Assembly: GCF_000165795.1 (NCBI RefSeq)
Contig: NZ_CM001022.1
Coordinates: 1,583,812-1,647,811 of the forward strand
DNA length: 64,000 nucleotides
Reading direction: 5' to 3'
DNA from: Aminomonas paucivorans DSM 12260
GTDB taxonomy: Bacteria; Synergistota; Synergistia; Synergistales; Synergistaceae
Shown piece by piece: positions 1 to 57,305 of this stretch (within the stretch, counting starts at the first letter, position 1; the number at the start of each line of letters is the position of its first letter). The notes below the pieces were generated by a model. The model did not search any database. It was not told where the DNA came from and saw only the letters and a list, made by a program, of their open reading frames with translations. The position numbers and the translations under genes are program-made.

Positions 1-225
1 GCGCACCAGGGGTTCGCCTCCCGTGAAGCGCACTCGCCGGACCCCCATGGCCACCAAGGCCTCGCAGAGAAACAGGATCTCCTCGTAACGAAGGATCCGG
101 TGGTGCTCCAACGCGGGAATCCCCTCGGGAGGCATGCAGTAGACGCAGCGGTAGTTGCACCGATCGGTGATCGAGATCCTCACGTAATTCAGTTTTCTGG
201 CGAAGCGATCCGTCAAAGACTCCAT
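1..225 (-). CDS. moaA: GTP 3',8-cyclase MoaA (N-terminal part, runs off the window)
   Basis: Radical SAM enzyme that starts molybdopterin synthesis by converting GTP to 3',8-cyclo-GTP. Only the first 75 codons are in the window. They show the MoaA N-terminus: after a DRFARKLNYVRISIT lead comes the 4Fe-4S/SAM cysteine motif CNYRCVYC (CX3CX2C), then a VRFTGGEPLVR segment matching the family's SAM-binding GGEP motif. The ATG at 225 follows GGGAGG at good spacing and overlaps the end of the upstream MoeA-fusion gene by 13 bases, so the two are translationally coupled. With the two moeA genes it forms a molybdenum cofactor block at the tail of the division cluster. Identification is firm; the C-terminus is not visible. 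Confidence 0.93.
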   Translation of the reverse strand, partial: MESLTDRFARKLNYVRISITDRCNYRCVYCMPPEGIPALEHHRILRYEEILFLCEALVAMGVRRVRFTGGEPLVR

Positions 226-2129
226 CGATATCCTCCCAAGGCCTCAATCTGCAGCCTCCACGCCGGATCCTCCAGGCAGGACATTAGGGCTTCTAAGGCT
301 GGATGCCCCTCGAACTCCCTAGGTCCGACAATCTCAAAGGGTTCCACCGCCAAGGAGATGAAATCCAGCCCCAACGCCTCCGCTGCGGCTCGGATGCCCA
401 AAGTCACATCCGCCTGACCGCTTGCCACCCGATTGGCCGCCTCCATGTGGGAGACGCACTGGATATCGTAGCCTTCCAGTCCCGCAGGAGGGATCCCCTC
501 CCGCCCCAGAAGGTGGTCCAGGAGCACCCGAGTCCCCGCCCCAGGTTGACGGTTGGCCAGCCGAATCCCCCGCGCCGCCAAGTCTCGGATGGTCCGAAGA
601 CCCAGAGGGTTCCCCGAAGGCACGATGAGCCCCTGTTCCCGGTAATAGAGGCGTCGACGCCACCACTGTCTCTGGGGGTCGAACTGAGCCAGAAAGGAAT
701 CGTTGTAGATTCCGGTCTGGGGATCCAGAAGATGGCAGGCCGCCAGGTGGGCCTCCCCCCGAGCCAACGCCGCAAGCCCCCCCAGGCTTCCCACGGTGCG
801 GATCGCCACCTGCGCCCCCCGAAGGCGGACACGGCTGGCAAGCCTCTGGAAGGCCGGGTCGTCGGACCCCTGGAACAGGACGGTCCTGTCCAGGTCCATA
901 CGTTTCAGGGTGTAGAAGGATAACGGGCTACCCTTGGGCAGTTCCAGGGTTTCCCGGGGCAGGACCCCCAGGGCATCACACTCTGCCAGGGCGAAGAGGG
1001 AGCTCGCCCCGGTGGAGAGCGGCCAGGCCACGACCTGATCCCGGATCCTGGCACACTTGAGCCGCACCCAATCCTCCATCCCCTGGGCCGAGGAAAGGGG
1101 GACCAGAAGACGACATTCCTGCGGCTCCCCGCATCCCAGGGAGGAGCAAAGCTCTTCCCCCGACGGGACGGACGAGGAGGCGAGGTGTTCCAAAAAAGGA
1201 TGGACCAGCCCCCAGGCCACCACCGCGGTGGACATGGGGAAACCGGGCAGGACGAGGACCGGCTTGCCCTTCCAGGCTCCCCCCATGGCGGGTCGCCCCG
1301 GCTTCATCAAAAGCCAGCGAAAGAGGAGCCCACCCCCTTCCCGAAGGACTGAGGCGGAATGATCCCTTTTGCCCTTGGCCGACCCTGCTCCGAGGAGGAC
1401 CACGTCGTAGCTCTCCGCTCCCTCGTCCAGGGCCTGCCGGATCTGGACGGGGTCGTCCGGCACAAGGGGGTGGACATGAAGGTCCATCCCCCACCCACGG
1501 AACAACCCCCGCAGGAGGAGGGAGTTGCTCTCCACCACGGTTCCCGGCGGAGGAGTCGCTCCGCTTCGGAACCATTCCTCCACGGAGAGGATCTCATCCC
1601 CCGTGGGGATGAAGAGAACCCGGGGTTTCGGGAGGGCGGGGATCTCTCGAACCCCCGCGCAGAGGAGCAGCGCCTGCAGGGCTGGGGTCACGGGATCCCC
1701 GGGGCGGGCCAGAACCTGTCCGGCCAGGACGTCCTCCCCCACGGGGCGGACGTTCTGCCCCCGAGGGGTTGCCCGAACCACCACCAGCCCGTCCGGTCCC
1801 TCGGAGGTATCCTCCACCATCACCACCGCATCGCAGGAAGGAGGGACCGCCCCCCCCGTGTTGACCCAGCAGAACCGGTCCCGCGACAAAAGCACCGGCC
1901 TGGCGGGACTGGCCTGGGCGGTGTCCTCGGAGGCAAGGGCATACCCGTCCACCGCCGCAGCAGGATAGTGGGGCACGTTTCGAGCCCCCACCACCTCCTC
2001 CGCCAACACCTCCCCGGAGGCCTGCTCCAGGGGGACGGGCCGCGCAGGAAGGGGGGCAAAACGGTCCCGAAGGATCTGAAGAGCCTCTTCCCTGGGAAGA
2101 TGCTCCCGACAACTCAGCGCGGAATCCAC
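213..2129 (-). CDS. MoeA-type molybdopterin biosynthesis protein fused to a substrate-binding-protein-like domain
   Basis: Two-part protein of 638 residues. Residues 1 to about 400 are a MoeA-like molybdotransferase with N-terminal, MoCF-binding and C-terminal sections; the PAAAVDGYAL signature is near residue 60, and the usual SGGxSxG..D loop reads GAGSAKGKRDHS. From about residue 410 to the end is a periplasmic-binding-protein-like domain (PBP_like type), with VPSGNPLG and the family-typical ANRQPGAGTRVLLD segment. It has no signal peptide, so it should act in the cytoplasm. Fusions of this kind are known in anaerobes and are thought to handle the oxyanion or cofactor insertion step; the exact role is unproven. 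The ATG at 2129 overlaps the preceding moeA by 16 bases. Confidence 0.88.
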   Translation of the reverse strand: MDSALSCREHLPREEALQILRDRFAPLPARPVPLEQASGEVLAEEVVGARNVPHYPAAAVDGYALASEDTAQASPARPVLLSRDRFCWVNTGGAVPPSCDAVVMVEDTSEGPDGLVVVRATPRGQNVRPVGEDVLAGQVLARPGDPVTPALQALLLCAGVREIPALPKPRVLFIPTGDEILSVEEWFRSGATPPPGTVVESNSLLLRGLFRGWGMDLHVHPLVPDDPVQIRQALDEGAESYDVVLLGAGSAKGKRDHSASVLREGGGLLFRWLLMKPGRPAMGGAWKGKPVLVLPGFPMSTAVVAWGLVHPFLEHLASSSVPSGEELCSSLGCGEPQECRLLVPLSSAQGMEDWVRLKCARIRDQVVAWPLSTGASSLFALAECDALGVLPRETLELPKGSPLSFYTLKRMDLDRTVLFQGSDDPAFQRLASRVRLRGAQVAIRTVGSLGGLAALARGEAHLAACHLLDPQTGIYNDSFLAQFDPQRQWWRRRLYYREQGLIVPSGNPLGLRTIRDLAARGIRLANRQPGAGTRVLLDHLLGREGIPPAGLEGYDIQCVSHMEAANRVASGQADVTLGIRAAAEALGLDFISLAVEPFEIVGPREFEGHPALEALMSCLEDPAWRLQIEALGGYRWSL

Positions 2130-3355
2130 CAGAACTCCACCTCCTCGCCGGATCGGGCCGTCTCGCGCTCCTGGGGGAACCGGAGGAACCCGTCCGCTTC
2201 ACGAAGCGCCGCCACATAGCCCGAAGCGGAGGGAAGCGGGACCACGCCTTGGGGCGTCCATCGCCCCGGGACGAACTCCTCCACCCCCGCGCGGGCGACG
2301 AGATCTCGAAGCAGGGTGACCCTTTCCTTCCTGCAGGTCCAGGTTTCCGGAGATCCCATCCAGGCCCCCAAGAGGGGGAGGAGCACCGTGTAGGCCACGG
2401 TGGCGCAGGCGAGGGGGTGTCCGGGAAAACCCACCACCAACCGGCGGGGGACAAGGGAACCCGCAAGGTGGGTGGGCTTTCCGGGCTGGATGTTGACCCC
2501 CCGGACCATCAGCCCCGGAGCGGGGATCTGCGACAGGATCTCCTCACAGTGATCCCGAACGCTCACCGAAGAGCCCCCGCTCAGAAGGATCAGGTCGCTC
2601 TCCTCGAAGGCCCGCTGGAACCCTGTCGCAAGGGCTTCCGGGTCATCCCGAAGGATGCCCCCGTGGCGCACACGAAACCCCCTTCGGCGGAGGAACCCCG
2701 TCAGAAACCACCCGTTGACGTCCCGAACGCAGCCCTGGGGCACGGGGTCCGTCTCCAGGGGGACCACCTCATCTCCCGTGCTCAGCACCGTGGCAGAGAG
2801 GTCGACCCCGGGCACCACGCCTTTCCCCAGCGCCGCGAAAATCCCCACGTGGCGTTCGTCCAGACGGGAGCCCGCGGTCAGGAGAGAGTCTCCTCTGCGG
2901 TATTCCTCCCCCTGGAAGACCACGTTTTCGCCCCGCTGCAGGGCTTTTCGAGCCTCCACCCACCCGGCGGTGACCGTGGCATCCTCCAGCATCAGCACCC
3001 CATCCGCCCCGGGGGGAAGCATCCCCCCCGTGTGGATGGACAGGACTTCCCCCCGGCGAAGGGGCTCCGAGGCAGGACCTCCCATGGGGACCTCCCCCGC
3101 AAGGCGCAGGAAGGCGGGAGTTCCCGGAGACGCTCCGGCGGTCTCCTCACAGCGGACCGCAAAGCCGTCTCGCAGACTTCGGGAAAAGGGCGGGTGGTCC
3201 TGAGACGCCACAAGGGTCTCCCCCAGGGGGAACCCAGCGGCATCCTCCAGGGCCAAGGGCGTCTCCCGGGGAGGAAGCTCCCAGGGGAACCCAAGCTCTC
3301 GGATGACCTTCGTCAGGACTTCCTCCCGAGGCGCCACTTCCCTAAGGACGTTCAC
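2114..3355 (-). CDS. moeA: Molybdopterin molybdenumtransferase MoeA
   Basis: Stand-alone MoeA of 413 residues, a normal length. The family inserts molybdate (or tungstate) into adenylylated molybdopterin. Visible features are FSRSLRDGFAV (the RDGYA-type signature), PPGADGVLMLEDA, and the MoCF-domain loop SGGSSVSVRDHC followed by a C-terminal beta domain. The gene sits three bases downstream of the SPOR-domain gene and overlaps the MoeA-fusion gene. It is clearly divergent from that neighbour, so the pair is not a recent duplication. Two different MoeA proteins in one operon could mean metal selectivity (Mo versus W), but the sequence alone does not show which. Confidence 0.92.
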   Translation of the reverse strand: MNVLREVAPREEVLTKVIRELGFPWELPPRETPLALEDAAGFPLGETLVASQDHPPFSRSLRDGFAVRCEETAGASPGTPAFLRLAGEVPMGGPASEPLRRGEVLSIHTGGMLPPGADGVLMLEDATVTAGWVEARKALQRGENVVFQGEEYRRGDSLLTAGSRLDERHVGIFAALGKGVVPGVDLSATVLSTGDEVVPLETDPVPQGCVRDVNGWFLTGFLRRRGFRVRHGGILRDDPEALATGFQRAFEESDLILLSGGSSVSVRDHCEEILSQIPAPGLMVRGVNIQPGKPTHLAGSLVPRRLVVGFPGHPLACATVAYTVLLPLLGAWMGSPETWTCRKERVTLLRDLVARAGVEEFVPGRWTPQGVVPLPSASGYVAALREADGFLRFPQERETARSGEEVEFWWIPR

Positions 3356-3358
3356 GGG

Positions 3359-4063
3359 TCATTCCCCCTGGGGCTTGGCACGAGGCGGGACGATCTGGGT
3401 GGGGAATCCCTTGGCCCCCAGGGAAGCCGCCACCGCCTCCGCCGCCTCCCGGCTGTTTCCGCCGGGGACGCGGACGCGGAAGAACGTCCCCTCCCCCACC
3501 TTGGCCTCCTGCATCTGGGGACGGAATCCCTCCTTCTGGAGCCGATCCGTCAGAGCCTGCGCCGCCTCCCGGGAGGAGAACGCTCCCGCCTGAACCCAAA
3601 AGCCCGGCGCACCCGTCCCCGGAGAGGGGGGAACCCGAGAAGGCTGTACCGTGGGGTGAGGTTTCGGAGTCGTCAAAAGCCTAGGGGTAGGGGCCGCCGA
3701 AGGGGTCTTCTTCCGGACCGCCGTGGGAAGGGGCTTTCGGGTCGGTTTGGCCTCCACCTCCGGCTCCGCCTTGGGAACCCTGACCACCCCAGGAGTGACC
3801 ACGGCCTTGCGCTTTGGGGCAGGGGTGGGAGTGAGGGAGACCTCTACGACCTCCGGCTCCGCCGTCGGGGAGGGCTCCTGGGAGACCTGTGCCGGAGGAG
3901 GGGCATCCGGGGACGGTGTCTGGGGTTGGAAGAACAGACGGACTCCCAGCACCAGGATTCCCACCGCCACCAGTGCCGCCAGGGGAAGGGCAAGCTGCCC
4001 GAAAGCGGAGAGAGAATGCTTCTGCTTGTAGGATCGGGACCGGCGTTGGCTCAAGGAAAGCAC
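3359..4063 (-). CDS. Membrane-anchored SPOR-domain protein
   Basis: Bitopic envelope protein of 234 residues. It has a short basic N-terminus (QRRSRSYKQK), one membrane segment at about residues 22-46, a long Pro/Ala/Thr/Lys-rich linker, and a C-terminal SPOR domain from about residue 158 (FWVQAGAFSSREAAQAL, then FFRVRVPGG). SPOR domains bind denuded septal peptidoglycan, and the family includes FtsN and DedD. Its place four genes after ftsA-ftsZ fits a late division protein. The GTG start at 4063 is preceded by GGGAGG and overlaps the radical SAM stop by 13 bases. FtsN-like function is inferred from architecture and neighbours only. Confidence 0.85.
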   Translation of the reverse strand: MLSLSQRRSRSYKQKHSLSAFGQLALPLAALVAVGILVLGVRLFFQPQTPSPDAPPPAQVSQEPSPTAEPEVVEVSLTPTPAPKRKAVVTPGVVRVPKAEPEVEAKPTRKPLPTAVRKKTPSAAPTPRLLTTPKPHPTVQPSRVPPSPGTGAPGFWVQAGAFSSREAAQALTDRLQKEGFRPQMQEAKVGEGTFFRVRVPGGNSREAAEAVAASLGAKGFPTQIVPPRAKPQGE

Positions 4064-5595
4064 CTCCCATGATCTGCGGGGTTCTCACGATGCGGGGAAC
4101 GGAAAAATCCCAGCCTTTCCAGCTCCCTCCGGGCTTGGTCGCGCCGTGGAGGGGTCGGCGCCCTTTCTCCCGCCAAAAAACGGTCCAACGTTTCCTCGCT
4201 GTCCTCGGAGGAGGACCAGCCAAGAGCATACTCCAGCGCGGCCTCCCTGTGGCTTGCAAAGCGGAAGGAGATCCGGCGCCGTCTCCCCCGGGAAAGCAGG
4301 CTCTCCCGGAGAAACGACGTCCGTCTCTCGTAGACCTCCGCAGAGAGGAAGGCTTCCTCCCCCCATGGGGTCCCCGGCTTGGGGACGAAAGGGTTCACCG
4401 AAAGCACCAAGGAGAGGCGTGTCTCCTGAAGCAGGGACTCCGTCAGGGATGCCATCCCGGCCACGTCCTCCTCCTCCTCCCCTGGAAGCCCTAACATGAA
4501 ATAGAGCTTCGCCTGACGCAGCCCTCTCTCAGCGGCCAGCCTTGCCTTCTGCAGGATCAGTTCGTCCGTGAAGGGCTTGCCGCAGCTCCTTCGTAGGGCC
4601 TCCGTACCCGCCTCGGGGGCGAGGGTCAGGGCCGTTCTGCCCCCTCGGTGCAGAGAGTCGACCATGAAGGCATCCAGAGAATCCAGGCGAAGCGAGGCAA
4701 AGGAGACGCTCTTGCGCAACGCCGTCAGCCGCTCCAGGAGGCCCCGGATCTCCGGATAATCCCCCGCCTCGGGAGTGATGAGTCCCACCTGCTCGAAGGA
4801 GGTACCCCGGGCCGCTTTCTCCAAAAGCGAGAGCGCCTCGGGAAACGGAAGACGCCTCAAGGGAGTAAAACAGCGAGGAAGTGTGCAGAAGCGGCAACCC
4901 CTCCGACAGCCCCTCTGAAGCTCCACCAGCAGGGTCTTCCCAAAGGTACACCTTGGGGTCACCCAGGCGCTGGCGGCATTTGGGGGCTCCAGCGCCTGGG
5001 CCTTTCCCGGGCCGGAAGAGGGCCCCCCCCTTCGGCCCCACAGGGGAGGCACCAGCACGTGGGGAAGCTCCGACAAAGCCTCCCACTGATCTTCCCGCCC
5101 CCCCCTCCCCCGCCGAAGACGGGCCACCACATCGGCCAGAGAAACCTCCCCGTCCCCCAACACGATGAAATCGCAAAGGGCATACAGGGACAGGGGATTG
5201 ATGGACGTGAGGCTTCCTCCTACCCCCACCAAAGGAGCCCCCCTGCACTGCCCCCGCTCTTTCCAGGAAAGGGGGATGGAGGCCCCCTGAAGCCAGGCCA
5301 TCAGGGACCAAACGTCGTTCTCGTAGGCGATTCCTGCGGTGATGATCGGAAATCGTTCCAGAAGGGTGTCGCTTTCTACGGATCGGTAGGGCGACTGGGG
5401 GCCGAGGAAGAACCGCTCCACCCCCACTCCCGAGCGGCGCAGCGCCCGGTAGACGTGGTGCATCCCCAGGTTGGCGCTGCCGACCTCGTAAGAGGCGGGG
5501 TAAAACAGAGCCCAAGGCAAGTCCCCCCCCTTGGGGAGCGGCTCCACCCAGGACTCGTCCTCTCTGTAGGTCTTCCAGCTCTTCCAACCCGTCAC
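4051..5595 (-). CDS. Radical SAM protein with B12-binding-like N-terminal region
   Basis: About 514 residues. The N-terminal 180 or so (ALFYPASYEVGSANLG, later FIVLGDGEVSLADVV) resemble the cobalamin-binding-like fold seen before many radical SAM domains. The Fe-S motif is CRRGCRFC (Cys230, Cys234, Cys237, CX3CX2C) with the following LPFPEALSLLEKA helix typical of the B12-radical SAM superfamily. A strict DxHxxG cobalamin motif is not seen, so B12 binding is uncertain. The GTG at 5595 was chosen because GGGGTGGA precedes it and it lies 41 bases past the ftsZ stop; an open frame continues upstream but only inside ftsZ. The substrate is unknown. A tRNA or peptide modification role would be a guess. 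Confidence 0.78.
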   Translation of the reverse strand: MTGWKSWKTYREDESWVEPLPKGGDLPWALFYPASYEVGSANLGMHHVYRALRRSGVGVERFFLGPQSPYRSVESDTLLERFPIITAGIAYENDVWSLMAWLQGASIPLSWKERGQCRGAPLVGVGGSLTSINPLSLYALCDFIVLGDGEVSLADVVARLRRGRGGREDQWEALSELPHVLVPPLWGRRGGPSSGPGKAQALEPPNAASAWVTPRCTFGKTLLVELQRGCRRGCRFCTLPRCFTPLRRLPFPEALSLLEKAARGTSFEQVGLITPEAGDYPEIRGLLERLTALRKSVSFASLRLDSLDAFMVDSLHRGGRTALTLAPEAGTEALRRSCGKPFTDELILQKARLAAERGLRQAKLYFMLGLPGEEEEDVAGMASLTESLLQETRLSLVLSVNPFVPKPGTPWGEEAFLSAEVYERRTSFLRESLLSRGRRRRISFRFASHREAALEYALGWSSSEDSEETLDRFLAGERAPTPPRRDQARRELERLGFFRSPHRENPADHGRCFP

Positions 5596-5636: not shown

Positions 5637-6857
5637 TCAGGAGGGTTTTCTCCTGCGGACGAATGCGGGGACATCCAACTGATTCGTGGGAACGCCGCTG
5701 AGCTTGAAGAGGTCCTCCTCCGTGTTTCCTCCCGCCGTGCGCACCTCCGACTCCTCCAGCTCCAGGCAGACCCTCCCGGGAGTGGCGGCCGGTCTCTCCT
5801 TCGCCGAAGTGCCGGGAGAGGAATACCCGGAGGAGCGAACTGCAGCGGGCCCGGAAGCGGGATGGCGCAGCGCCGCGGGACTCGCCTTGGCAGATTCGGA
5901 GAACCCCGTGGCAATGACGATGATCTGGATGCGATCCTCCATGCCCGGCTCCAGGACGTGCCCCCAAATGAGGGTGGCATCTTCGTCCGCCGCCTCGTTG
6001 ATGACCCGAGCGGCCTCCTGGATCTCGTGGATGCCCACGTTGGCTCCCCCGGTGACGTTGAAGAGGACGCCCTTCGCCCCCGCCATGGGGTTTTCCATAA
6101 GGGGGCTCTGGATGGCGTTTCGGGCCGCGACGGTGGCCCGGTTCTCTCCGTGCCCCTCCCCGATGCCCATGATGGCGGAGCCCGCGTTGCTCATGACGGT
6201 GCGCAGGTCCGCGAAGTCCACGTTCACCAGTCCCGGCCGCAGGATCAGGCTCGTGACCCCTTCCACAGCCTGGCGAAGGACCTCGTCGGCCAGCTTGAAC
6301 GCCTCCGCCAGGGAGGTCTTCTTTTCCGTGAGTTCCAGGAGACGGTCGTTGGGGATCACGATCAGCGCGTCCACCTGTTCTCGGAGACGCTCGATGCCCA
6401 GCTGAGCCTGCTGGATCCTCCGTTTTCCTTCGAAGAGAAACGGACGGGTCACCACGGCCACCACCAGGGCCCCTGTCTCCTTGGCCACGCTGGCGATGAC
6501 CGGTGTGGCTCCGGTACCGGTCCCCCCCCCCATCCCGGCGGTGAGGAACACCATGTCGGCCCCTTCCAGGACCGCTCGGATTTCCTCCCGGGATTCCTGG
6601 GCGGCCTTGAGGCCGATCTCCGGATTGGCCCCCGCCCCCAGTCCTCGAGTCAACTCGCGGCCCAGAACGATCCTCGCATGGGCCTCGGACATCTCCATAT
6701 GCGCCACATCGGTGTTGGCAGAGATGAACTCCACCCCTCCGACTCCGTTTCGGATGATGTGGTTCAAGGCGTTGTTTCCGCCGCCTCCGACTCCCACAAC
6801 CTTGATGACTTCCCGGTAGGGCCGCTCGGGTTTTTCGATCTGAAAGACTTCAGACAT
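5637..6857 (-). CDS. ftsZ: Cell division protein FtsZ
   Basis: Tubulin-like GTPase that polymerises into the cytokinetic Z ring. It is 406 residues long. The GTP-binding tubulin signature GGGTGTG is at residues 110-116, the N-terminal [10 protein letters not shown] loop at 21-30, and the T7-loop region [11 protein letters not shown] follows. After a variable Pro/Ser/Ala linker, the C-terminal peptide [13 protein letters not shown] matches the conserved tail that binds FtsA. The ATG at 6857 has AGGAGG nine bases upstream. It lies 26 bases after ftsA in the dcw operon, the usual order. Confidence 0.98.
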
Positions 6858-6883: not shown

Positions 6884-8227
6884 TTAAAAAAGTTCCCGAA
6901 AGGACTTCTTGAGGGTGTCCAGCATCTGCTCCAGCCCCGAGGGACCAGCGGGCTTCTTCGGCACCTGCTTGGGCCTCTCGTCGCCCCCCCTCAGGGTGGG
7001 CCCCTGTCGCTTGATCTGGTCCAGGGAGGGCTCCATGTACCGGAACGGATTCCGCTCCCGCTCCAGCATGTACCGGATGATCCCCGCCGCGCAGGCATAC
7101 TCGAACCCGTTACGCCCGGGAGGCATCCTGCCCGAATCCAGGGGGAAAGCGGCCCGAGCGGGCATGTCCAGGACCTCGGAGACGAAGCCGTCCAGGTCGT
7201 TGGTCTTTGCCACTCCCCCGGTGAGGACAAGCCCGGCAGGGAGCATCGGCAATCCCGCCTCGGCGACCTCGGACTTCACCAACACCCCGTAAAGCTCCTC
7301 GATGCGGCACTTGACGATGTCCGCCACGTCCCGAACGGGGCAGGAATAATTCCTCCCCCGGATCTCGAAATCGATGGTCTCGTCCTGAGCTTCCGGATCG
7401 CCGAAGAGGGAGATCTCCCGCTTGATCTCCTCGGCCTTGCTCAGGGGGATGCGCAGCACGCAGGCCACATCGTTGGTGAGATGGTCCCCCCCTACGGGGA
7501 TGATGGAAAGCCTTCGGGGACGCCCTTCGGAGAAGACCGCCACCCCCGTGGTGCCCCCTCCCACGTCCACCGCCACGGCCCCCGCCATGGCTTCCTCGGG
7601 AGAAAGAGAACCCAGGGCGGACGCCAGGGGCTTGATGACCAGCCCCGTCACCTCCAGCCCCGCCTTCTCCACGCAGTTCAGCACGTTCTGCAGAGCCGCC
7701 GTGGGGACGATCACGGATTGGAGATCGATCTCTAACCGCATGCCCGTCATCCCGAGGGGATCGTCGATCCCTCCATGGCCGTCCAGGGAGTACTCCACGG
7801 GGATGGTATGAAGGACCGATTGGTTTGCCGGAACAGCCACCTCCGTCTGGGCAGCCTCAATGACCCGCTCCACGTCCAACTGCATCACCGGCCGGGGGGA
7901 ACGTCCCAGAGACACCATGCCCTTGGACCGGACACTCAGCACATCGCTGCCGCTGAAGGCAACCGTGGCCTCGTCCAGTTCCAGGCCCACCATGTTCTGG
8001 GCATCCGCCACCGCCTGCTTGACCGAACGGATAGCCTGATCCAGGTTGACGATCAAGCCCTTTCGAATTCCCTGGGATGGGGAGTGTCCGATGCCGATGA
8101 TCTGGGCCTCTCCCGTGCGGCTTTCCCTTTCAGCGACCACCACCGCTACCTTGCTCGTCCCAAGGTCGAGTCCCACCAGCAGTTCCGGGTCTCTCTGGGC
8201 CGCGGAGGTTGAACCTTTTTTGAACAA
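6884..8227 (-). CDS. ftsA: Cell division protein FtsA
   Basis: Actin-like ATPase that ties FtsZ to the membrane; 447 residues. The N-terminal phosphate-1 motif is LLVGLDLGTSKVAVVVAE. Phosphate-2 is AVAVDVGGGTTGVAVF and the adenosine motif is LVLTGGVAKTNDL. The extreme C-terminus, LEQMLDTLKKSFRELF, is an amphipathic helix as expected for the membrane-targeting sequence. The start is a TTG at 8227 after a run of seven G that may serve as ribosome-binding site. No better in-frame start exists before the conserved domain. It lies 22 bases downstream of ftsQ. Confidence 0.97.
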   Translation of the reverse strand: MFKKGSTSAAQRDPELLVGLDLGTSKVAVVVAERESRTGEAQIIGIGHSPSQGIRKGLIVNLDQAIRSVKQAVADAQNMVGLELDEATVAFSGSDVLSVRSKGMVSLGRSPRPVMQLDVERVIEAAQTEVAVPANQSVLHTIPVEYSLDGHGGIDDPLGMTGMRLEIDLQSVIVPTAALQNVLNCVEKAGLEVTGLVIKPLASALGSLSPEEAMAGAVAVDVGGGTTGVAVFSEGRPRRLSIIPVGGDHLTNDVACVLRIPLSKAEEIKREISLFGDPEAQDETIDFEIRGRNYSCPVRDVADIVKCRIEELYGVLVKSEVAEAGLPMLPAGLVLTGGVAKTNDLDGFVSEVLDMPARAAFPLDSGRMPPGRNGFEYACAAGIIRYMLERERNPFRYMEPSLDQIKRQGPTLRGGDERPKQVPKKPAGPSGLEQMLDTLKKSFRELF

Positions 8228-22592: not shown

Positions 22593-22925
22593 GCGGGGGA
22601 GCATCCCATAAGCCGGGTTTTGTCGTGCCCAGTCATTTCTCTGGTCCCCTTCTCGCGAAGGGGATCGAGCGATCGTACCCGGGAGTCGGCGGGCCGCCTC
22701 ATCCTCCCCTATTCGATCTTGCTCCGGATGGGGCTTGCCGTAGCCCAACGGTCACCCGTTGGCTGGTGGGCCCTTACCCCACCTTTTCACCCTTACCCGT
22801 AGGCGGTTTGATTTCTGTGGCGCTATCCTTGGGCTTGCGCCCACTGGAATTTCTCCAGCATCCTGCCCTGCGGAGCCCGGACTTTCCTCTGCCGTGGCGA
22901 CAGCGACTGGGAAGGATGCTCCCCC
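22593..22925 (-). ncRNA. rnpB: RNase P RNA, bacterial type A
   Basis: Catalytic RNA of RNase P, which matures tRNA 5' ends. The minus strand shows the hallmark conserved blocks in order: GAGGAAAGTCCGGGCTCC near the 5' end (P4 strand, 22885-22868), then GGGTAAGGGTGAAAAGGTGG in the middle, and ACAAAACCCGGCTTATG at the 3' end. The outer P1 helix closes perfectly: 5' GGGGGAGCATCC (22925-22914) pairs with GGATGCTCCCCC (22606-22595), 12 base pairs. A promoter lies directly upstream. Reading frames through this stretch are not coding. It runs in the same direction as mraZ, whose gene begins about 160 bases further on; 22465-22592 shows no gene. Confidence 0.96.
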
Positions 22926-43191: not shown

Positions 43192-43268
43192 TGGTGGCGG
43201 TGACTGGAATCGAACCAGTGACACTGCGGGTATGAACCGCATGCTCTAGCCAACTGAGCTACACCGCC
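43192..43268 (-). tRNA. tRNA-Met, elongator (anticodon CAT)
   Basis: Minus-strand cloverleaf: acceptor GGCGGTG/CACCGCC, D-arm TAGCTCAGTTGGCTAGAGCA, anticodon stem TGCGG/CCGCA with loop TTCATAC (CAT), T-arm CTGGTTCGATTCCAG, encoded CCA. G1-C72 pairing excludes the initiator type. The loop ends in C38 rather than the CATAA of typical isoleucine-2 tRNA, so elongator Met is preferred although tilS is next door. Confidence 0.9.
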
Positions 43269-43269
43269 C

Positions 43270-43346
<77 letters not shown>

Positions 43347-43379
43347 ATCAGAATTACAAGCCGAGCCGATGAGGAAAAA

Positions 43380-43456
<77 letters not shown>

Positions 43457-43467
43457 ATGTCACCCCA

Positions 43468-43554
43468 TGGTGCCGAGAGCGGGGATCGAACCCGCACGGA
43501 CTTTCGTCCACAGGATTTTAAGTCCCATGCGTCTACCAATTCCGCCATCCCGGC
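43468..43554 (-). tRNA. tRNA-Leu (anticodon TAA)
   Basis: Minus strand, 87 bases with a long variable arm (TGTGGACGAAAGTCCGT): acceptor GCCGGGA/TCTCGGC, anticodon loop CTTAAAA, T-arm GCGGGTTCGATCCCCGC, discriminator A and CCA encoded. It is first in the four-tRNA operon. Confidence 0.95.
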
Positions 43555-57120: not shown

Positions 57121-57197
57121 TGGCGCGCCGGACAGGATTTGAACCCGTAACCTTCGGATCCGTAGTCCGATGCTCTATCCAGTTGAGCTACCGGCGC
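57121..57197 (-). tRNA. tRNA-Arg (anticodon ACG)
   Basis: Minus strand: acceptor GCGCCGG/CCGGCGC, D-arm TAGCTCAACTGGATAGAGCA, anticodon stem TCGGA/TCCGA with loop CTACGGA (ACG, read as ICG after deamination), T-arm ACGGGTTCAAATCCTGT, encoded GCCA end. Confidence 0.95.
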
Positions 57198-57210
57198 GTA
57201 AACCGCTATG

Positions 57211-57305
57211 TGGCGGTGGGACAGGGATTCGAACCCTGGAGGGCGGTTTTAGCCACCCTACTCGCTTAGCAGGCGAGTGCCTTCAGCCGACTCGGCCATC
57301 CCACC
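57211..57305 (-). tRNA. tRNA-Ser (anticodon GCT)
   Basis: Minus strand, 95 bases with a long variable arm (TAGGGTGGCTAAAACCGCCCT): acceptor GGTGGGA/TCCCACC, anticodon stem CTCGC/GCGAG with loop CTGCTAA, T-arm CAGGGTTCGAATCCCTG, encoded GCCA. It is transcribed before tRNA-Arg. Confidence 0.95.

Follow-up and report, generated by a model that had tools for sequence, protein, structure and literature searches.

Methylthiotransferases such as MiaB and RimO combine a radical S-adenosylmethionine (SAM) core with an N-terminal domain in which three cysteines serve a second cluster. MgmA, the methyl-coenzyme M reductase glutamine C-methyltransferase (Protein Data Bank 9ccb), is a B12-dependent radical SAM protein methylase that carries its cobalamin in a Rossmann domain, as stated in the available part of its description (PMC11796369). 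TIGR03960 (rSAM_fuse_unch, a B12-binding radical SAM family held as a hypothetical model without function) has an N-terminal PF19864 domain followed by a radical SAM core. Here we analyse a gene that likewise encodes these two parts and lies directly behind the division gene ftsZ of Aminomonas paucivorans DSM 12260 (Synergistota), in a stretch of 64,000 nucleotides that we call the window (assembly GCF_000165795.1, contig NZ_CM001022.1, positions 1,583,812 to 1,647,811 of the forward strand). By tree and alignment we show that this gene represents, in Synergistota, a radical SAM lineage distinct from TIGR03960; we call the Synergistota form group A and TIGR03960 group T. Shorter proteins, mostly of 530-600 amino acids, branch between these two in the tree (group B); they have the same domain plan as group A and occur in Desulfobacterota, the Nitrospirae group, Negativicutes, Armatimonadota, Chloroflexota, Myxococcota and Omnitrophota. 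On placement and synteny, the gene is almost certainly a member of a branch next to TIGR03960 that is linked to the division cluster and has no name of its own. Our best overall reading, to which we give a probability of roughly 0.4, is that the gene encodes an enzyme with the fold of a cobalamin-type radical SAM methylase, from an old branch tied to division genes.

Position and descent in Synergistota

The open reading frame (ORF) is complete, running from a GTG start at 5595 to a stop at 4051. ORF coordinates and Pfam matches bear out the initial annotation of this DNA, which had placed a radical SAM gene 41 bases after ftsZ and in overlap with a gene for a SPOR-domain protein; the overlap amounts to 13 bases, provided that the GTG at 4063 is the start used by the SPOR gene. 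In the gap behind ftsZ, neither a promoter-like site nor a terminator-like site on the minus strand turned up in a scan that finds no promoters region-wide and terminator-like sites at chance level, and this site-free gap lends weak support to the idea that ftsZ and the radical SAM gene may share one transcript.

All 60 Synergistota relatives gave a match. In 47 of them the match is of a close kind (39-53% identity outside the genome of A. paucivorans itself), with an open frame of at least 482 amino acids and, in five cases, one stop inside the aligned range. The second, distant kind (about 28-35% identity, open frames mostly near 600 amino acids) consists of genuine TIGR03960 proteins, as scored on the copy in the same genome as the window (L077, 648 bits), which lies about 134 kb beyond it. 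Across 185 Synergistota genomes, some of them incomplete, the close kind (group A) is present in at least 78, a lower bound taken among the matches listed, down to an E value of about 1e-68; 72 of these copies lie at E <=1e-160, four are divergent and come from families outside the window's order, and two are cut by contig ends. With the window counted, 77 of 78 group A loci have ftsZ directly upstream in the same orientation, the remaining one having only 32 bases of contig upstream, so that the conserved division-gene link proposed at the outset is firmly upheld. Where there is enough sequence, a SPOR gene follows downstream in 65 of 70 loci and a MoeA gene in 47 of 67. The four divergent copies (L218-L221) have ftsZ directly upstream as well, with a SPOR gene, farther off, in one of them. 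Since these copies from outside the window's order also follow ftsZ, the link looks ancestral to the phylum, and the gene appears to have stood directly behind ftsZ since early in its history.

We also inspected the ftsZ locus in 13 of the 107 genomes without a detected copy. Nine of these (L205-L212, L214) run from ftsZ to the SPOR gene with no room for another gene, an order that fits clean gene loss, and in the other four (L213, L215-L217) no SPOR gene was matched. Three genomes of one genus (G037, G046, G054) have no ftsZ-linked gene and no detected cobalamin riboswitch, and retain a TIGR03960 copy.

The best NCBIfam model for the window protein is TIGR03960, at 175.3 bits against a cutoff of 462.3, which places the protein outside that family; as the nearest family itself has no assigned function, the initial description of the protein as uncharacterised still holds. 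In an 80-row tree, the window clade and the divergent copies are separate from TIGR03960 (support 99), and the Synergistota TIGR03960 proteins group with their clostridial counterparts (support 88). A recent duplication of the Synergistota TIGR03960 gene was rejected as the source of the window gene, since the paralogue joins the clostridial proteins while group A stands apart. In a 70-row, unrooted tree, the values of the Shimodaira-Hasegawa-like approximate likelihood ratio test (SH-aLRT) are 100 for T and 99 for A, with B in between. From synteny, and because genomes repeatedly pair an A or a B copy with a single T copy, we infer that A and B probably form a single clade.

Group A differs from TIGR03960 in further respects. 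First, a C-terminal cysteine motif (by a pattern defined in this analysis) is absent from all 78 group A rows but occurs in most B proteins (59 of 86 loci) and in all 14 Synergistota T copies; among other T copies it occurs in 53 of 56 (first set) and 20 of 38 (second set), and is thus not universal outside group A. Second, group A stands beside ftsZ and not beside a SEDS gene, DUF2344 or RNase G. By contrast, all 14 Synergistota TIGR03960 loci inspected have a SEDS gene (FtsW match of about 30-36%) within 2 kb, which we call rodA-like because in L078 the PF01098 gene adjoins a gene for a penicillin-binding transpeptidase. As an observation in its own right, cysteine dominates three columns of the N-terminal domain in the Synergistota TIGR03960 proteins L077-L090 (at 100, 86 and 79% across the 14 rows). 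Groups A and B have no such columns, and a second cluster or metal site in the N-terminal domain of these TIGR03960 proteins is possible.

Relatives in other phyla

A scan of named genomes (at least 594 stretches, with at least 80 loci kept, and no bearing on absence) yielded 79 relatives at 26-35% identity, besides a single Synergistes locus that belongs to the close kind. Group B copies were found behind ftsZ in L109 (at 2 kb), L110, L122, L139, L140, L147 and L157, and all 16 non-Synergistota genomes with a B copy that were tested hold exactly one more, T-like, copy. Seven larger groups were then sampled (59, 8, 50, 48, 51, 39 and 41 genomes, the Nitrospirae group being the one with 8), with the best loci, at most 30 per group, retained; sorting by the higher-scoring of two profiles, from the B and the T alignment, divided the 182 loci into 112 B and 70 T. 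As markers we used ftsZ and the genes ylmD and ylmE, which the available part of PMC5943314 places behind ftsZ in many bacteria; the test spans about 1.5 kb of flank, and Pfam confirmed one or two examples of the marker genes.

Either ftsZ upstream or ylmD/ylmE downstream was found at 69 of 112 B loci versus 0 of 70 T loci. The Desulfobacterota and Negativicutes sets yielded no T loci, and in the five groups that yielded both kinds the figures are 20 of 52 for B versus 0 of 70 for T. One T locus, in Armatimonadota, has ftsZ downstream on the opposite strand. Taken by group, ftsZ lies upstream of B in Desulfobacterota (21/30), the Nitrospirae group (6/8), Armatimonadota (5/16) and Myxococcota (1/16), and at no B locus of Negativicutes (0/30), Chloroflexota (0/10) or Omnitrophota (0/2), whereas ylmD or ylmE lies downstream in Negativicutes (28/30), the Nitrospirae group (7/8), Chloroflexota (4/10) and Armatimonadota (3/16), and at no B locus of Desulfobacterota, Myxococcota or Omnitrophota. 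At Negativicutes (28/30) and Nitrospirae-group (6/8) loci, the gene directly downstream of B is ylmD. The division-gene link is stronger and wider than the initial annotation supposed, and it is not universal outside Synergistota.

The neighbours of T are of another kind. DUF2344 is fused to T or encoded downstream of it in the Nitrospirae group (8/8), Armatimonadota (10/14), Myxococcota (13/14), Chloroflexota (6/18) and Omnitrophota (1/16); RNase G accompanies T in the Nitrospirae group (8/8), Armatimonadota (3/14) and Myxococcota (7/14) and at none of the Chloroflexota or Omnitrophota loci; and a rodA-like gene lies upstream of T in 12 of 16 Omnitrophota and 1 of 18 Chloroflexota loci. Neither DUF2344 nor RNase G was detected adjoining B loci in the sampled groups. 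One Desulfobacterota genome has B directly before T, as a tandem origin would leave them, and locus L385 (2492-7425) carries group B, TIGR03960, DUF2344 and RNase G in a single row, as expected from an old tandem duplication.

Both Omnitrophota B loci (L126, L380) sit in a murC-murB-ftsA cluster in which ftsZ was not detected; a pilT-like gene, by reading of the sequence, occupies the place expected of ftsZ, between ftsA and the radical SAM gene (L126 5799-6899, L380 6893-8002). In Negativicutes, genes that on the same basis resemble an anaerobic ribonucleotide reductase and its activase lie upstream of B (L373, L374 and others), and two upstream neighbour clusters of that kind occur in 17 and 12 of the 30 loci. 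When seven B proteins were scored against TIGR03960, two passed the cutoff (L092 463.2, L107 470.2) and five fell below it (L139 462.0, L111 446, L147 427, L094 344, L096 323); the Omnitrophota protein L126 reached 237 bits.

Predicted fold and enzyme class

Pfam detects PF19864 (Radical_SAM_N2) at residues 67-183 of the window protein (E 6e-18) and PF04055 (Radical_SAM) at residues 225-383 (E 3e-15). The CX3CX2C motif for the [4Fe-4S] cluster is present in 86 of 86 B loci and in 76 of 78 group A rows (the window not counted, the two misses cut by contig ends, and L091 being the same kind of locus as L033). An alignment of 22 relatives has 66 invariant columns, far above chance, and 41 residues are kept at >=90% within A (22 rows), B (22 rows) and Synergistota T (14 rows) alike. 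It is very probable that the protein is an active radical SAM enzyme.

The closest solved sequences are MgmA, TM_1862/RimO, AprD4 and MiaB. AlphaFold2 returned a model of the window protein with a predicted local distance difference test score (pLDDT) of 85.9 and a predicted template modelling score (pTM) of 0.87 from 54 sequences, and a model of a group B protein with a pLDDT of 91.9 and a pTM of 0.91 from 22 sequences. The best match of the window model by VIA-align is MgmA (Z 25.1, 3.4 Å, 369 residues, span 27-462), followed by MiaB (20.6), CysS, AprD4 (19.7), TsrM (19.3), RimO (18.9) and OxsB (18.5). Similarly, the group B model matches MgmA best (Z 23.3, 3.2 Å, 371 residues), with the next match at 18.6. 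An N-terminal Rossmann domain of the B12-binding type is seen in the predicted model only, where MgmA, TsrM and OxsB match both domains. As modelled, the fold is that of a cobalamin-type radical SAM methylase; the cobalamin-domain-like N-terminus of the initial annotation thus stands as a fold, by the predicted model and the match to MgmA, and not as a demonstrated binding site. We put the chance that the enzyme is cobamide-dependent at about even.

MgmA shares this fold, yet its identity to the window protein is 17% over the aligned residues, its family model TIGR04014 gives the window protein 32.6 bits against a cutoff of 360, and its hosts and gene context differ. The methylthiotransferases MiaB and RimO resemble the window protein in the radical SAM core and in overall fold, but a methylthiotransferase is unlikely because no set of three N-terminal cysteines is kept in group A or B, and with TIGR00089 at 14.2 bits against 251 this assignment was rejected.

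The features of the locus are collected in Table 1. The MoeA gene and the MoeA-PBP fusion (213-3355) also stand behind ftsZ-SPOR in six of the 13 gene-less genomes inspected (L205-L210). Scored against Glp, a MoeA-like family of the divisome (cutoff 475), the two homologues reach 187 and 181 bits, and a division role for the MoeA copies that follow SPOR is worth a test. FtsA is far diverged from that of the window (27-42% identity) in L031, L035, L070, L074, L218-L224 and L242-L245, where the adjoining FtsZ is at 56-71%. Elsewhere on the minus strand, the window holds an RNase P RNA of class A (22594-22922) and two tRNA gene clusters (43195-43554 and 57124-57305).

Table 1. Features of the window at the ftsZ locus, with the evidence for each (PBP, penicillin-binding protein).
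Feature	Positions	Strand	Evidence
Radical SAM protein gene, 514 amino acids (group A)	4051..5595	minus	ORF, Pfam, NCBIfam, alignment; GTG start matches the starts of relatives
N-terminal Rossmann, B12-domain-like part, about residues 27-180	5056..5517	minus	PF19864, AlphaFold2 model, structure matches
Radical SAM core, about residues 220-460	4216..4938	minus	PF04055, model, structure matches
CX3CX2C [4Fe-4S] cluster motif, residues 230-237	4885..4908	minus	three cysteines invariant in two alignments of relatives
ftsZ, directly upstream, 41-base gap	5637..6857	minus	Pfam; TIGR00065 420.5 bits against cutoff 295.2
ftsA, upstream of ftsZ	6884..8227	minus	position and matches beside ftsZ in relatives
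SPOR-domain protein gene, overlaps radical SAM stop	3359..4063	minus	Pfam
MoeA homologue, next after SPOR gene	2114..3355	minus	Pfam
MoeA homologue fused to PBP-like domain	213..2129	minus	Pfam

Substrate and alternative explanations

We propose that the enzyme would bind a [4Fe-4S] cluster, SAM and probably a cobamide, the last perhaps held by its tail in the Rossmann domain by analogy with MgmA, and would methylate a macromolecule at an unreactive carbon (or, less likely, make another radical change there). Such a transfer is a tentative assignment that rates somewhat below an even chance. The enzyme is probably produced along with FtsZ and the SPOR protein, so that the modification would be present in proportion to the division machinery. 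The most likely substrate would be either an RNA or a protein, belonging to translation or to the divisome. A link to division itself is on balance unlikely, and it is quite improbable that both the marked component and its mark are undescribed and that the place which the enzyme has kept in the division cluster predates the divergence of several phyla.

Several results weigh against our preferred explanation. First, the B12-binding profile PF02310 has no match in the window protein and a below-cutoff match in two of seven relatives (L092, L219), and on reading the sequence no D-x-H-x-x-G is found in the N-terminal domain, as the initial annotation had remarked; this motif is not known to be required in this cobalamin enzyme class. 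Second, a cobalamin riboswitch is found in 43 of 47 gene-bearing genomes and in 10 of the 13 others, so cobamide use does not follow the presence of the gene, and the riboswitch was discarded as a proxy for cobamide dependence since it does not discriminate. Third, as MiaB and AprD4 come after MgmA among the matches, the fold alone leaves the reaction open. Fourth, among the matches listed, 107 of the 185 Synergistota genomes, some of them incomplete, show no group A copy, so division in this phylum can do without the gene. Fifth, the fixed place among division genes, upheld in Synergistota, does not hold throughout the other phyla: 43 of 112 B loci have neither marker within the flank, and in Myxococcota 1 of 16 is linked. 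Finally, no evidence in this analysis names a substrate. In the open-access literature, where absence is weak evidence, we found nothing on TIGR03960, on Radical_SAM_N2/PF19864 or on radical SAM proteins with the division and cell wall (dcw) cluster, no paper on ylmD, ylmE and ftsZ that also mentions radical SAM (by co-mention of three of the four), and nothing on the gene under candidate Geobacter or Desulfovibrio locus tags or among Veillonella essential genes; the available part of PMC8871954 does not mention it.

The alternative that survives best, doubtful as it is, is a housekeeping radical SAM enzyme that modifies tRNA or rRNA and is merely co-transcribed with the division cluster, which would give it growth-matched expression but no mechanistic role in division; its chemistry overlaps with that of our preferred explanation. 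Paralogue T is fused to or lies beside DUF2344, often next to RNase G, and DUF2344 is given as one half of a pseudouridine synthase domain in the available part of PMC7955657. By analogy this partner hints at RNA as the substrate of group T and points weakly to RNA for groups A and B, and MiaB with bound RNA is among the top fold matches. On the other hand, neither DUF2344 nor RNase G was detected next to the sampled B loci, group A lacks the C-terminal cysteine motif, and linkage to ftsZ or the ylm genes in separate phyla seems more specific than co-expression requires.

It is fairly improbable that the same fold serves a radical SAM enzyme that works without cobalamin and in a different reaction class, for instance an AprD4-like dehydratase. 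The Z score of AprD4 and the lack of a B12-binding profile match in the window protein speak for such an enzyme, but MgmA is the best match by a clear margin in both models (25.1 over 20.6 and 23.3 over 18.6).

A modifier of FtsZ or another divisome protein, acting after translation as MgmA does on a protein, again overlaps in chemistry with the preferred explanation and is improbable. It would account for the strict adjacency to ftsZ (77/78), and the nearest fold is that of a methylase of protein glutamine whose cleft is wide enough for a peptide, according to the available part of PMC11796369. We compared 76 Synergistota FtsZ sequences from genomes with the gene to 13 from genomes without it, and columns 169, 277, 301 and 304 differ at the cutoffs used. 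In FtsZ proteins adjoining group B genes, however, H277 is present in 7 of 38, V301 in 27 of 38 and P304 in 10 of 38, and P169, found in 37 of 37, is also present in five of the 13 Synergistota genomes without the gene. As three of the columns are unconserved beside B and the fourth residue occurs in gene-less genomes, no consistent target residue emerges; across the Synergistota and B-linked sets no FtsZ residue tracks the gene, in a comparison confounded by phylogeny. Moreover, the Omnitrophota gene lies in a mur-ftsA cluster in which ftsZ was not detected. Last, action on a cell-wall precursor or cytoplasmic small molecule, in a pathway shared with YlmD and YlmE, is suggested by ylmD directly downstream of B in Negativicutes and the Nitrospirae group and is very improbable, as Synergistota loci have SPOR and MoeA genes downstream instead and the protein has no further Pfam domain.

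The TIGR03960 model mixes two old paralogues with unlike neighbourhoods, B proteins falling on both sides of its cutoff, and annotation based on it may be misled. In several phyla, an enzyme of definite chemistry class and well-predicted fold is encoded again and again where the division cluster ends in ftsZ, and its paralogue sits in the context of elongation (SEDS/PBP) or of RNase G. Division, or translation serving it, may carry an undescribed modification installed by radical chemistry, and the conserved gene order allows a connection of the enzyme with division or with growth of the cell wall to be tested.

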